From positions 1 to 34,727 of the forward strand of contig JAOTVA010000022.1 in assembly GCA_029863645.1 (NCBI GenBank): a DNA stretch of 34,727 nt, written 5' to 3'. Each line of letters opens with the position of its first letter. The stretch's first letter is position 1. The position numbers were made by a program, and so were the translations under genes. A model generated the notes under the pieces. It saw nothing but the letters and a program-made list of their open reading frames with translations. It ran no database searches and was not told the origin of the DNA. This DNA is from Gemmatimonadota bacterium (GTDB lineage: Bacteria; Gemmatimonadota; Gemmatimonadetes; Longimicrobiales; Gaopeijiaceae). This document shows, piece after piece, positions 25,144-29,805 of this stretch.

Positions 25144-25570
25144 GGACCGCTGCTCGGGAGGGATCCGGAATGCATGGGAGAATTTAACCGCCTTGACCCC
25201 GACCGACCACCCCGGCCGAACCCGCGGAATCGCTTGTGGTAGAAGGATTTTCGCGCTCTTGGAGGTAACGCGGGGCGGGCCGCGTCAGCGCTGCTGGAAA
25301 TCGGGCTTGTACTTCCCGAAGAACGCTTCCGACCCTCTCCTATTTCGTTGGGTCGGGGGCGCTGTCCAGAGCATGCTGAATTGCCTGGAGGCTCCTGTCT
25401 CGGCTCGATTGCGAAGGGCGGTACATCGGCGCCCCCAATCAGAATGGAAAAAGCCATCCGGCCGCCTTACCTTTCGGCCCGCTCCCAACTCAACCGGGCC
25501 CAAACGCCCTGTTTGGTCGGGGCGCCGAAGACCTTCGCAGCCCCCTCGTTTCGCCAGGAGCCCCGTAGCC
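25144..25570. other. Divergent intergenic region between recF and ssb, with a long-range stem
   Basis: These 427 bases hold no convincing gene. They must contain the recF-operon promoter (minus) and the ssb promoter (plus). I cannot point to clear -35/-10 pairs. GGGGGCGC at 25355-25362 and GCGCCCCC at 25429-25436 would close an 82-base domain with an eight-base-pair stem. Short inner complementarities (GGAGGCTCC; GCATGC) exist, but no tRNA, SRP RNA or riboswitch consensus fits. The ssb Shine-Dalgarno site AGGAG is at 25556-25560, ten bases from the ATG. Confidence 0.4.
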
Positions 25571-26029
25571 ATGAGTCGGTCCCTCAACAAAGTCATGCTC
25601 ATAGGAAATGTCGGGAACGATCCAGAAATTCGCGCAACGAGCAGCGGGGCTCGGGTGGCCAAAGTGTCGCTGGCAACGAACCGCTCGTGGTCGGACAGGT
25701 CTGGGCAGCAACAGGAGAAAACGGAGTGGCATCGCCTGACCTTCTTCGGCAGGCTGGTCGACATTGTCGAGCAGTGGGTCAAGAAGGGCGACCGGCTCTA
25801 TGTCGAGGGCCGCGTCGAGTATTCACAGACGGAGGGCGAAGGCGGGCCCAAGTACTGGACCGACATCGTCATCAACGAGATGGTGATGCTCGGCTCGACC
25901 CAGGGGGGCGGCGGAGGTGGGGGCGCAGGCAGCGGCGGGAGCGGGGGCGGCGGGGGACGCTATTCGGGCGGGGGAGACAACGATCCAGGGCCGTCGCTCA
26001 GCGAGCCGGACGACGACCTTCCGTTCTGA
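25571..26029 (+). CDS. ssb: Single-stranded DNA-binding protein
   Basis: The protein has 152 residues. The OB-fold begins SRSLNKVMLIGNVGNDPEIR and includes WHRLTFFGRLVDIVEQWVKKG, LYVEGRVEYSQ and YWTDIVINEMVMLG, all standard for bacterial SSB (about 1-110). A glycine-rich, repetitive linker (about 116-140) follows. The acidic tip ends DDDLPF, the docking peptide for RecO, PriA, exonuclease I and other partners. The start is ATG at 25571; upstream in-frame codons lie in intergenic sequence and the AGGAG site supports this Met. It coats single-stranded DNA as a tetramer in replication and repair. It is divergently placed from recF. It is not beside rpsF/rpsR as in many genomes. Confidence 0.97.
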   Translation: MSRSLNKVMLIGNVGNDPEIRATSSGARVAKVSLATNRSWSDRSGQQQEKTEWHRLTFFGRLVDIVEQWVKKGDRLYVEGRVEYSQTEGEGGPKYWTDIVINEMVMLGSTQGGGGGGGAGSGGSGGGGGRYSGGGDNDPGPSLSEPDDDLPF

Positions 26030-26041
26030 GCCTCGACCTGG

Positions 26042-26377
26042 CTAGCTCTCCGAGGATGACCCCTCGGGCTCGGTTTCCCACAGCCCCATGAAGTACTCCT
26101 CGTACTTTTCGGGGTGCGCCTTGTAATCCTCGAGCCAGACGTCGAACGGGGGTAGCGCGATCCGTCGCCCTAGCCAGTCGGTTGCGACGCGCACCATCTC
26201 GACATACGAGATGTCCCCCTCGCCCCCCTCTTCCCGATACGCGCGGTGGGCGAGCAAGTAGATCTCGTCCGGGCTCATCAGGACGAGGAGGTCCGCCAGC
26301 TGCGCTGAGCAGTAATCGTGATACTTAGCGCGCAGGACCTGAAGCGGCTCCTTTGAGCCCTTCTTACCTTCGTCCAC
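26042..26377 (-). CDS. Orphan helical-domain protein, paralogue of the 27118 and 28832 genes
   Basis: The protein has 111 residues. GTG at 26377 is preceded by GGAGG with six-base spacing. Apart from short charged ends it consists of one helical module (about 12-100). It resembles regions of the two larger neighbours: LLVLMSPDEIYLLAHRAYR, then about 25 residues later ALPPFDVWLEDYKAHPEKY. The matching block in the 191-residue protein is LLPLPPFETWCDDLARNP and in the 225-residue protein [21 protein letters not shown]. The shared core is L-P-x-F-x-x-W-x-x-D-(FLY)-x-x-x-P-x-x-Y. I know no named family for it. It converges with ssb, 12 bases away. It is soluble and probably cytoplasmic, and may bind partners through this domain. 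Confidence 0.72.
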   Translation of the reverse strand: MDEGKKGSKEPLQVLRAKYHDYCSAQLADLLVLMSPDEIYLLAHRAYREEGGEGDISYVEMVRVATDWLGRRIALPPFDVWLEDYKAHPEKYEEYFMGLWETEPEGSSSES

Positions 26378-26383
26378 CGCGGT

Positions 26384-26388
26384 CCTCC
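26384..26388 (-). promoter_or_regulatory. Shine-Dalgarno site for the GTG start at 26377
   Basis: GGAGG with six-base spacing to the GTG at 26377. This is a strong site that supports the 111-residue orphan as a real gene despite its non-ATG start. Confidence 0.7.
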
Positions 26389-26533
26389 CGCAGGCGTGTA
26401 GAGTCCCTCAGTGCGTCTCGGTGCGTCACGGACCTGAGAGGCTCCGATCGCGCCAAGGTATGCAACTCAGGGACTTACGAGCGCAAGGCTTTCGCGGCTC
26501 CCCTCGAAGACGGCGTGGTTTTCCGCCGACGCG

Positions 26534-26743
26534 TCAGGGGGTCGACGGCGTGACGTCGGGAGCGAGGCCGGGAGGCGTGTCGACATCGTGCTCGCGCAGA
26601 TGACGATAGATGGATCGACGCGTCAGTCCGTAGAGCACCACGCGACTCAAGAAGTCCGGATCGGTCTCCTGGACTTCTTCTGCCTGGGCAGCGATGTCAC
26701 GCGGCAGCTTCACAGAAAGTTGCACGGAACGCGTCTCCCACAT
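26534..26743 (-). CDS. Small ribbon-helix-helix (CopG/Arc-like) regulator
   Basis: The protein has 69 residues. ATG at 26743 has GAGGTG about seven bases upstream, and gives the N-terminus WETRSVQLSVKLPRDIAAQA. This is a beta strand with alternating residues followed by two helices (EEVQETDPDFLSRVVLYGLT; RRSIYRHLREHD). Strand plus two helices in about 50 residues is the ribbon-helix-helix DNA-binding fold, acting as a dimer. The frame is open upstream to 26815 but crosses an AT-rich stretch that looks like its promoter (CATAAT at 26778-26783 as a possible -10). No toxin gene lies next to it, so a classical antitoxin role is not supported. It may regulate its own promoter and the orphan genes around it. 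The proline-rich tail is probably disordered. Confidence 0.65.
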   Translation of the reverse strand: MWETRSVQLSVKLPRDIAAQAEEVQETDPDFLSRVVLYGLTRRSIYRHLREHDVDTPPGLAPDVTPSTP

Positions 26744-26946
26744 AGACACACCTCGCCCAGAAGGGATGGTTGAAAAAATTATGCTTTCAGGGGTACCGAC
26801 CATCGAGACACGCACCCGACTGTGATCGGTGGGGAGGCGCTAGCGACCCTTGAGATGGAGAGTACGGTAAGTGGGGACCAGAGCGTGCGCAACCCCCTTG
26901 TTGGCCGCACCACAAGAAAAGCGTGAGCCCATAAGTCGTTGCCATA

Positions 26947-26956
26947 TAACATGTTA
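26947..26956. repeat. Perfect 10-base palindrome, candidate operator
   Basis: TAACATGTTA is self-complementary and lies in the AT-rich intergenic region upstream of the ribbon-helix-helix gene. Short palindromes of this kind are typical operators for dimeric regulators, but only one copy was noticed, so the assignment is speculative. Confidence 0.3.
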
Positions 26957-27097
26957 GGAATACGGACATTTTCGTAAACCATGTGTTCCTGCGAGAGGTC
27001 GCAGTTTACACGTAGACACCGCGTCGAAGTGGAAGTTCAAGTGCCGCAGGGAGTTTCGACTGCAGCCCCCGGCATCGCCACCGGGCAACCGGCCACA

Positions 27098-27117
27098 CAG
27101 TTTTTTGGAAAAAACTG
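27098..27117. repeat. Perfect inverted repeat abutting a stop codon
   Basis: CAGTTTTTT (27098-27106) and AAAAAACTG (27109-27117) are perfect reverse complements separated by GG. The repeat ends immediately at the TAG stop (27118-27120) of the 191-residue orphan. The two-base centre is too small for an RNA hairpin without opening inner pairs, so it is more likely a DNA palindrome or a weak terminator using the T run. Confidence 0.6.
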
Positions 27118-27693
27118 CTAGGGCAGCGCGGACCGAAGAAACGCTACGAGCGTCGAGGATTCGAAGCTCAAGAAGCGATCGCGCACCGCGACTGGGTCAT
27201 GCTCTTGAAAGATTAGAGCAGTGCGGTGAATGCGGTTCGACTGACGATTTTCGAACGCGATGAAGCCACGCCAGGTGACTCCGTCGCGGAACGACCTGAG
27301 GTGGGCCTGCCACGGATACCGATCGTGAGAGAACTCACGAGTCTCGACGGTCACGGGGGCTCCTGCATCGGGAGCGTCCGCCGAGTCGTCGACGTCGTAG
27401 AGGTGCGCCGTCGGGTTCCGAGCCAGGTCATCGCACCAGGTCTCGAACGGCGGGAGAGGGAGTAGGGCTTCGCAGTAGCGCACGAGACTCGCCATGAGGT
27501 CGGCGTCCTCGCCTCCCCCACTCAGGCCCGCTCGTCTGGCACGTCGGCAAAGCGGCCGAATCGCCTCAGGAGGTAACATCCTAAGCAGCCCTCTGGCCTG
27601 TCGTAGGCGATAGGCCTCGTAACGCTCGAGCTGTTCCTGCTCTGTGCCTGGGCCATGGGCAATCCCGTGGCCCACGGCTCCGCCGGTCAGCAT
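27118..27693 (-). CDS. Orphan two-domain protein (helical domain, then beta domain)
   Basis: The protein has 191 residues. Residues 28-100 form the helical module shared with the 26042 gene, ending LLPLPPFETWCDDLARNP. Residues 126-191 form a second module: WQAHLRSFRDGVTWRGFIAF, later HRTALIFQEHD and a final helix TLVAFLRSALP. The second module matches the N-terminal part of the 28832-29509 protein (SWHGYFSF ... RTTDIFIED ... [11 protein letters not shown]). The two proteins thus carry the same two domains in opposite order. No signal peptide, membrane segment or enzyme motif is visible. ATG at 27693 has only a distant GAG as Shine-Dalgarno; a GTG six codons later is an alternative. The gene follows the 27733 gene by 39 bases and may be co-transcribed with it. 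Confidence 0.72.
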   Translation of the reverse strand: MLTGGAVGHGIAHGPGTEQEQLERYEAYRLRQARGLLRMLPPEAIRPLCRRARRAGLSGGGEDADLMASLVRYCEALLPLPPFETWCDDLARNPTAHLYDVDDSADAPDAGAPVTVETREFSHDRYPWQAHLRSFRDGVTWRGFIAFENRQSNRIHRTALIFQEHDPVAVRDRFLSFESSTLVAFLRSALP

Positions 27694-27732
27694 CGACGGT
27701 CAAGCTCGGGAGGCGTCACCGAACTCCGTGCC

Positions 27733-28638
27733 CTAATGGACGACGTGCGAGCCGGAGAAGGGGGCGGGCACCCGCACCACGTGCAGCGGCGACTCGTGAA
27801 TGTGAAGTGCGCTGAGCGTCTCGCGCGCTCCGAAGGTGTCCATTACGCGAGCGAGGGAAGCGAAGCGATCTGGATCGAACCTCGCGAGTAGCGCGCCGAG
27901 TCCCCGACGTATGTGCCCGAGGCACGTGCGCGTCTCGGCGAGCGTCGTCGGGAGGGCAAACCGTACCTGGTACTCGATCGCTTCGGCCGCGGCCATCGGC
28001 TCGGTTCGGAGTAGCTCGCCGGTCGGAAACGCTTCGGACAACGCATGCTCCAGCGGTGCGTCGCGCTCCTCGAACGCCGTCCGGAAGACGAGCGCGCTCG
28101 TGTCGTAGTCGAGTTGCGCACGGGTCACGCGCCCGGGTCCCAACACGATCCGAATCGAGGTGCCCTCGTGAAGGTCGAGATCGCGGCAGATGTCGCGATA
28201 GCCGACCCGCAGGAAGGTAGGGCGGGTGAGAGGACCGAAGCCGATCCGCTCCAGGACTCGAAGGCCGAGCTGAAAGCCGTACTTGCGGACTGCGTCCGGA
28301 TCGCGCGTGGCGGCCGCCGCAGTGATGAGCTCCGACACGTGATCCAGCGTGGGCTCGTACACCCAATCGAGGACGACGAGCTCTGTGCTGAGATCCAGCA
28401 CTTTGAGCTTCCCGCTGCCCAGATCGAGCGCTTCTGCGGTAGAGGCGTAGCGTCCCTCGACGACCAGTGCGAGCCCGATGTCTTCGATTCTCCCGCCCGG
28501 TGTGTCCATCTCGTGGACGTCCCTGTACTGCACAACGGCGCGGGTGAGCGGAAGCTCACAGATTCCCGGGACATCACCCATCGCCTCAGGGCGTGCGTCC
28601 GTGTAGACGTGCGTCTGCATCGCGTGCTCGACCCCCAT
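27733..28638 (-). CDS. Hypothetical protein, about 301 aa
   Basis: I do not recognise this family. The frame is open upstream to 28821, but that part overlaps two perfect hairpins and a possible promoter, so ATG at 28638 or ATG at 28620 (with GAG six bases upstream) is preferred. The protein is soluble, with an N-terminal beta-rich part (RAVVQYRDVHEM; IGLALVVEGRYAS; KLKVLDLSTELVVLDWVYEP) followed by a mixed helical region (AVRKYGFQLGLRVLERIGFG). Near the middle, TSIRIVLGPGRVTRAQLDYD looks like paired strands. Third-position G/C and residue composition look like genuine coding. It is divergent from the 28832 orphan and upstream of the 27118 orphan. It may belong to the same functional set, but it shares no visible domain with them. 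Confidence 0.65.
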   Translation of the reverse strand: MGVEHAMQTHVYTDARPEAMGDVPGICELPLTRAVVQYRDVHEMDTPGGRIEDIGLALVVEGRYASTAEALDLGSGKLKVLDLSTELVVLDWVYEPTLDHVSELITAAAATRDPDAVRKYGFQLGLRVLERIGFGPLTRPTFLRVGYRDICRDLDLHEGTSIRIVLGPGRVTRAQLDYDTSALVFRTAFEERDAPLEHALSEAFPTGELLRTEPMAAAEAIEYQVRFALPTTLAETRTCLGHIRRGLGALLARFDPDRFASLARVMDTFGARETLSALHIHESPLHVVRVPAPFSGSHVVH

Positions 28639-28648
28639 TCCGACAAGA

Positions 28649-28668
28649 AACCCGGCTTTCGCCGGGTT
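28649..28668 (-). other. Leader hairpin with GAAA tetraloop
   Basis: On the minus strand AACCCGGC pairs perfectly with GCCGGGTT around GAAA, a GNRA tetraloop closed by C-G. TTCTTGTC follows, giving it some terminator character. It lies 11 bases before the possible start at 28638 and directly after a second perfect hairpin. Confidence 0.6.
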
Positions 28669-28686
28669 ACCCGACCGGAGTCGGGT
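28669..28686 (-). other. Leader hairpin with TCCG tetraloop
   Basis: On the minus strand ACCCGAC pairs perfectly with GTCGGGT around TCCG, a UNCG-type tetraloop closed by C-G. It abuts the GAAA hairpin. The two unusually stable loop types are in the correct sense only on the minus strand, which suggests a structured minus-strand RNA. Confidence 0.6.
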
Positions 28687-28710
28687 GCGGTGCCAGTGAC
28701 AGTGCCCCCC

Positions 28711-28740
28711 ACGATAACGACCGCTTCCTGACGATCGCAA
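28711..28740 (-). promoter_or_regulatory. Possible sigma-70-type promoter for the 27733 gene leader
   Basis: TTGCGA (28740-28735) and TATCGT (28716-28711) on the minus strand are 18 bases apart, each matching four of six consensus bases. Transcription would start a few bases downstream, leading straight into the two hairpins at 28669-28686 and 28649-28668. This is a consensus match by eye only. Confidence 0.33.
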
Positions 28741-28831
28741 GAAAAACGTAGTCGGCCCTGGCGAGCCGCCCCACCACCGCCTTGCTGGGGCTCGGGAGCA
28801 TTGGCATCTTCCGGCGTCCATTCCCTACGCC

Positions 28832-29509
28832 ATGACCACTCTGAAAGAACGCCGACGCTCAGTCGCCTTTCTCGAGAGCCACGGGGACACCTGGGCGTGT
28901 TTCTTGGTCACTCATCCGGGCAGTGCCGGATCTTGGCACGGATACTTCTCGTTCCGCCCGAGCCACGGCGAGGTAGGCGAAGACGAAGTCCGCACGACGG
29001 ACATCTTCATCGAGGACTCCGAAGACGAGATCCACGAAAAGGCGCGGAGCCTCGGGCGCCCGCTCCTGGCCAGCCTTCTCGATTCGGCTCTCTACACCGC
29101 AGACGGGAACGGACACGCGCCGCGGCTCAGGGGACGATTTCGATCGCTCCTGGTCCAGAACTCCGTCGACATCGCGGGCGACTGGAGCGGGCACCCGGGT
29201 CCAGCGGAAGACCACGAGGTCGATCGACTACGATCGCTCTACGCGTCGTACCGGCTCGATCAGGTGGCTCATTTTATTTGCCTCGTGGACCAAGAGGCGT
29301 TCGAACATGCGGTCGACCGGATCCTGGATGGCGAGAGCGTCGACTTCCTGGCCAAGGACCGGATGCAGTACGCCATCATGGTCGTGGATCACATCGAGCG
29401 GCTGCTGCCCCTGCCCGACTTCGCGACTTGGGCGGAGGACTTCATAGCCAAGCCCGAGACGTATCGGCTCTATACCCACACGCTGCACCGGGAAGGACGA
29501 CTGCCCTGA
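28832..29509 (+). CDS. Orphan two-domain protein (beta domain, then helical domain)
   Basis: The protein has 225 residues, starting with ATG at 28832. Residues 18-89 carry the beta module: [34 protein letters not shown] and [11 protein letters not shown]. Residues 135-215 carry the helical module: [18 protein letters not shown], then [20 protein letters not shown]. Both modules recur in the 27118-27693 protein in the reverse order, and the helical one alone in the 26042 gene. The linker (90-134) is charged and Gly/His-rich. No signal peptide or catalytic motif is visible. The codon use is typical of the window. No good Shine-Dalgarno motif was seen. It is divergent from the 27733 gene and about 100 bases upstream of rpsU. 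The function is unknown. Confidence 0.75.
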
Positions 29510-29610: not shown

Positions 29611-29805
29611 TTGGAAGTCGTCATCCAGGACAACGAGAGTCTCGACCGAGCGCTCCGCCGCTTCAAGCGGAAGGTGCAGCGCTCCGGGCTGTATTCCGAG
29701 TTGCGAAAGCGCCGTTACTACGAGAAGCCGAGCGCCCAGCGCAAGCGGAAGCGTGAAGCGGCCATCCGTCGCGAGCGCCGTCGCCAGCGCCGCAGCCGCC
29801 GCTAG
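29611..29805 (+). CDS. rpsU: 30S ribosomal protein S21
   Basis: The protein has 64 residues. From TTG at 29611 the sequence reads [20 protein letters not shown], then [20 protein letters not shown] and a very basic tail of Arg/Lys repeats. This is the complete bS21 pattern, including the conserved [12 protein letters not shown] helix. S21 sits on the platform of the small subunit and supports initiation. The upstream frame is open but lacks family similarity. GAGAGG lies about ten bases before the TTG. A TTG start is unusual for a ribosomal protein and may keep expression modest. A short hairpin with T-run follows the stop. Confidence 0.93.

Follow-up and report, generated by a model that had tools for sequence, protein, structure and literature searches.

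What kind of system is encoded by a group of genes that share two protein modules in different orders and flank a small putative regulator? The locus lies in the window, the whole 34,727 nt stretch of Gemmatimonadota DNA analysed here, in which the initial annotation had marked three open reading frames (here A1, A2 and B) as paralogous orphan genes. All three are present where they had been placed, A1 and A2 on the minus and B on the plus strand. The features of the locus are:

25193-26029, plus strand: open reading frame containing ssb (single-strand DNA-binding protein), a conserved neighbour
26042-26377, minus strand: A1, 111 aa, a lone helical module (open reading frame and helical profile)
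26534-26743, minus strand: small ribbon-helix-helix-like (RHH-like) protein, 69 aa counted from MWET, fold by pattern only
26864-26869, minus strand: TACCGT, putative -10 element of the RHH promoter (TTGCGC-N17-TANNNT conserved)
26887-26892, minus strand: TTGCGC, putative -35 element of the same conserved promoter
26931-26957, no strand assigned: dyad GTAANNNGTTGNNNNNCAACNNNTTAC, with 3 mismatches in this copy, whose near end lies about 37 bp upstream of the -35 element
27118-27693, minus strand: A2, 191 aa, helical then beta module
27121-27348, minus strand: beta module of A2, residues 116-191 (profile comparison)
27388-27642, minus strand: helical module of A2, residues 18-102 (profile comparison)
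27733-28626, minus strand: U362, a conserved 297-aa protein with a predicted two-part alpha/beta fold
28832-29509, plus strand: B, 225 aa, beta then helical module
28853-29107, plus strand: beta module of B, residues 8-92 (profile comparison and model)
29213-29491, plus strand: helical module of B, residues 128-220 (profile comparison and model)
29611-29805, plus strand: bS21 (rpsU), a conserved neighbour

Two of these genes have open reading frames longer than their conserved portions. The frame of U362 spans 27733-28821 on the minus strand, with conservation starting from 28626, and that of the RHH-like protein opens at 26815 (minus strand), upstream of the MWET start; because sequence conservation sets in at 26743, translation probably begins there.

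Module homology and structure predictions

Comparison of module profiles, derived from ortholog alignments, gives significant matches among all three helical modules, with E-values of the order of 1e-13 to 1e-18 (B and A2, 8.8e-19; A2 and A1, 2.2e-14; B and A1, 2.4e-13), and between both beta modules at about 1e-16 (B and A2, 1.4e-16), while beta and helical profiles do not match each other. The proposal that two modules are common to the three genes is therefore upheld, as are the swapped order (helical-beta in A2, beta-helical in B) and the helical core L-P-x-F-x-x-W, which recurs in the ortholog alignments. The modules stand as proposed, but their extents are slightly wider (A2, about 18-102 and 116-191; B, about 8-92 and 128-220). 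Within the window's own genome, the only matches of an A2 query are B (residues 20-99, E = 5e-4) and A1 (residues 23-96, E = 0.003). The description of the locus as three paralogs holds for A1, A2 and B, but it overlooked U362, a conserved cluster member located between A2 and B; U362 as an additional copy of the helical or beta module is ruled out, as it is unrelated to them by profile comparison.

The initial annotation had recognised neither domain, and module searches of Pfam, NCBIfam, PHROGs, PADLOC and the PDB likewise gave no match. At the usual thresholds, the helical module, the beta module and U362 correspond to no known family or solved fold; both modules are undescribed in the libraries searched. 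Judged by title and abstract, the papers listed by a text search on Gemmatimonad bacteria and ribbon-helix-helix proteins deal with subjects other than this locus. The structure model of B (pLDDT 80, pTM 0.51) contains two ordered modules with a linker of low confidence between them; the beta module is modelled with three to four strands and two helices and the helical module as all-helical; a Foldseek search of this model against the PDB gave no match at E = 1e-3. The model of U362 (pLDDT 87, pTM 0.82) has weak best Foldseek matches to ARPC2 (E = 8e-3), ExsC, SpcU, SigE and YbjN, none of them at E = 1e-3 or better and all with low TM-scores. We take these folds to be secretion-chaperone-like.

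Distribution and inheritance of the cluster

The term orphan does not apply to these genes, which have orthologs in much of the class and, across the window's family, the arrangement A1-RHH-A2-U362|B beside ssb and bS21; the term lineage-specific is correct at the level of class and phylum, as far as tested. In particular, a B query matches 43 of 59 related genomes (any match counted, modules included), and across 298 genomes of the phylum the helical, RHH and beta profiles are found in 121, 102 and 164, respectively. A scan of named genomes, the single scan through which phyla beyond Gemmatimonadota were covered, returned 72 loci that belong to Gemmatimonadota by title or kinship, save one contig. 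That exception (L090) is titled Gammaproteobacteria bacterium Ww582 and carries the Gemmatimonadota gene, probably as a result of mis-binning.

Both module orders and the neighbouring RHH-like gene recur in other genomes within the same cluster. In the window's family (f1), the order ssb | A1-RHH-A2-U362 | B-bS21 is repeated with recF and gyrB nearby; the loci of one genus (g26) are without B, and those of another (g12) have RHH-A1 only. The loci read in family f2 are mostly A1-RHH|B and are kept near ssb, with U362 in one f2 genome among those scanned. Further, the RHH-A1 pair has different neighbourhoods in families f4 and f9, and the linkage to ssb is therefore not essential. B has no match on plasmids, A1 has none on viral contigs, and PADLOC and PHROGs gave no match for the proteins of the locus. 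The cluster is old and vertically inherited in the class Gemmatimonadetes. Separately, in one genome (L171:2795-4042, also L032) the A1 frame is open over 416 aa, suggesting an extended A1.

The small RHH-like protein and its pairing with A1

A ribbon-helix-helix regulator had been proposed in the middle of the locus. The sequence pattern is present, but significant profile support from Pfam, NCBIfam or the PDB is not, as the protein matches no RHH profile or solved RHH structure in these libraries; Pfam Arc is matched by 1 of 32 members at a non-significant E-value of 0.014. As far as the alignment alone indicates, the protein would be a strand followed by two helices, with polar residues at alternate strand positions, and SVQLxVRLPR followed by two likely helices is what we take to be the usual RHH pattern.

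The RHH profile has exactly one match in each positive genome. Where both genes have strong matches, the RHH-like gene is immediately upstream of A1 and co-oriented with it in 99 of 101 genomes (gap below 700 bp, median 201), and the two exceptions have the genes on separate contigs. The constant core of the locus is this pair of an RHH-like protein and a lone helical module. In the leader of the RHH mRNA (26733-26862, minus strand), the motif CxCCUC could pair with the GAGGUG ribosome site; folding of four genomes gave this pairing in three. A leader that masks the ribosome site was rejected as a candidate, as the folds are no stabler than those of shuffled sequences.

A conserved promoter and an upstream dyad

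The promoter of the RHH gene is conserved as TTGCGC-N17-TANNNT, and a conserved 29-bp dyad, CGTAAGTCGTTG-N5-CAACGACTTACG, ends 36-39 bp upstream of its -35 element in 25 of the 27 genomes scored; in the remaining two, a tandem copy located 29 bp nearer scores best. The best scores average 17.9 of 24, compared to 12.6 in shuffled sequences. Across 68 genomes of the window's family there are 100 dyad matches compared to 12 for the reversed pattern, and across 40 genomes with no detected RHH gene there are 94 compared to 16, a 6- to 8-fold enrichment with or without the gene. Autoregulation by the RHH-like protein, with the dyad as its operator and the other sites as its regulon, was considered and the claim was dropped, because equal enrichment where the gene is lacking indicates that the binder is probably another protein. 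By this pattern of occurrence, the dyad probably belongs to another, class-wide regulator, which would also control the RHH operon.

The dyad sites are mostly intergenic and often precede envelope genes (lipoproteins, TonB receptors, OEP and a pilin-like gene). For example, the dyad recurs before a lipoprotein gene in four genomes, the window's included (L178, L184, L195 and L219), and before an NtrC-type regulator gene in two genera. Several other matches fall within or close to mnmG, parB and a bactofilin gene (L187, L202, L215, L201 and L221), in the vicinity of the usual chromosome-origin genes. Two further placements were discarded: the half-site shows no enrichment before B and U362, and a proximity to rRNA operons, suspected from positions at contig ends, was not borne out, with Rfam giving only two tRNAs across 40 loci. 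One such contig-end site is the RHH gene itself (L194).

Split and fused forms of the modules

Family f4 has the beta module as a separate gene directly behind RHH-A1 (profiled at five loci), and profile match positions, read by eye, place it at matching coordinates in 14 genomes. Genomes of f1 and f9, the window's own among them (L152), also have stand-alone beta genes at other places. Some stand-alone beta genes (L062:6743-7377, L148 and L151) are near a small AbrB-like gene with a GGRITIP motif, which adjoins the beta gene in L062. Moreover, in families f6 and f7 a distantly related helical module (E = 1e-5 to 1e-7) forms the N-terminal part of 260-285-aa proteins whose C-terminal half is methyltransferase-like; in one of them (L159) this part matches Methyltransf_25 at E = 2.8e-5, just under the curated cut-off. 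By eye, such fusions, with a degenerate second domain, are near or next to a gene for an RlmI-type-looking methyltransferase (L156, L157, L158 and L159).

In the tree of helical modules, A2 and B group as sisters, with SH-aLRT support of 90, inside the A1 sequences, and the helical module was therefore probably copied once from A1 and diverged afterwards. In the beta tree, the module of B groups with the f4 operon module (support 85) and that of A2 stands apart, with weak support overall (54-85) that does not discriminate a circular permutation from separate fusions as the origin of the domain swap. By distribution, B (seen in f1 and f2) is older than A2 (seen in f1 alone). The proposed duplication and domain shuffling are both supported, but the rearrangement is old and not local to this genome. 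An interaction between the proteins is likewise plausible, given that modules fused in either order here are encoded by separate neighbouring genes in another family. The same comparison, split in f4 and fused both ways here, together with the linkage of the genes, suggests that beta and helical modules may act jointly.

A regulatory reading and its rivals

We tentatively read the locus as an old, vertically inherited cluster of regulatory type, in which an RHH-like regulator has interchangeable helical-module partners in A1, A2 and B, a reading that falls just short of probable; the functional roles, DNA binding and docking among them, are inferred. An RHH-like dimer would bind DNA, and the helical module would dock to the RHH-like protein; if the module is such a docking partner, A1, A2 and B would be alternative partners of one regulator. 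The beta module of A2 and B could recruit a second ligand or protein, and U362, with its predicted chaperone-like fold, may add another protein-binding part to the complex in the window's family. Counting against this reading, the helical module is also found with no RHH gene, fused to a methyltransferase-like domain, profile and PDB searches give the small protein no support as an RHH fold, and the dyad before its promoter is as enriched in genomes without the gene. A bolder extension, which we regard as unlikely, is that throughout the class one helical docking module is an interchangeable link to one small DNA-binding protein, whose partners would compete. The module would then occur alone (A1), fused to a beta module in either order (A2 and B), beside a beta gene and on a methyltransferase-like protein.

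The main rival to the regulator reading is a housekeeping or structural complex, for example in replication or in ribosome or envelope assembly, in which the small protein would help assembly instead of regulating through DNA binding. The constant position of the cluster between ssb and bS21, with recF and gyrB nearby, its single copy and vertical inheritance, the resemblance of U362 to protein-binding chaperone folds and the lack of statistical support for an RHH fold all fit such a complex; we nevertheless doubt it, as RHH-A1 is found elsewhere in f4 and f9, where ssb linkage is dispensable, and as SVQLxVRLPR and its two likely helices have the usual RHH pattern, albeit as a pattern only. 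The helical-methyltransferase-like proteins of f6 and f7 (helical E-values of 1e-5 to 1e-7, and the L159 match to Methyltransf_25 at 2.8e-5) would instead make the helical module a substrate or nucleic-acid recognition unit for modification enzymes, and A1, A2 and B the adaptors of a lost or separate methyltransferase. This is improbable, since the similarity is weak, the remaining members tested have no Pfam methyltransferase match and the window's cluster has no methyltransferase. Finally, a small RHH-like gene with a small gene directly behind it could be a chromosomal toxin-antitoxin pair, in which case A2 and B would be spare toxins. The patchy, mobile distribution expected of such systems is not what the locus has (single copy, syntenic, no plasmid or viral match): there is one copy per genome at a constant, vertically inherited place, B is not on plasmids and A1 not on viral contigs, PADLOC and PHROGs have no match, and the RHH core has no conserved tail able to neutralise a toxin. 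A toxin-antitoxin pair would accordingly be very surprising.

Whichever function applies, two protein modules and a larger family (U362) are defined that have no library match but wide conservation in a phylum that has been little studied. Modules that are split, fused in both orders and fused to another domain constitute a natural experiment, from which partners are predictable and testable. The class-wide dyad additionally points to a widespread regulator.

Comparison with known systems

Secretion-chaperone-like folds (type III chaperones, YbjN and Arp2/3 ARPC2) are the source of the best Foldseek matches of U362, which differs from them in that its E-values are no better than 8e-3 and its TM-scores are low, with no sequence match in the libraries searched. 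RHH-led toxin-antitoxin operons also have an RHH-like gene followed by a small partner gene; in contrast, RHH-A1 is single-copy, syntenic, vertically inherited and off plasmids and viral contigs (searched with B and A1), and its A1 partner is unrelated to anything in the libraries searched. Arc/CopG-type repressors are similar to the RHH-like protein in size and in sequence pattern, a short strand (here VQLxVRLP) followed by two likely helices, and are likewise encoded by a small gene heading an operon, whereas the RHH-like protein has no significant profile match and its A1 partner comes from an undescribed family. Overall, the system resembles a small-regulator operon whose partner protein is of a new kind.
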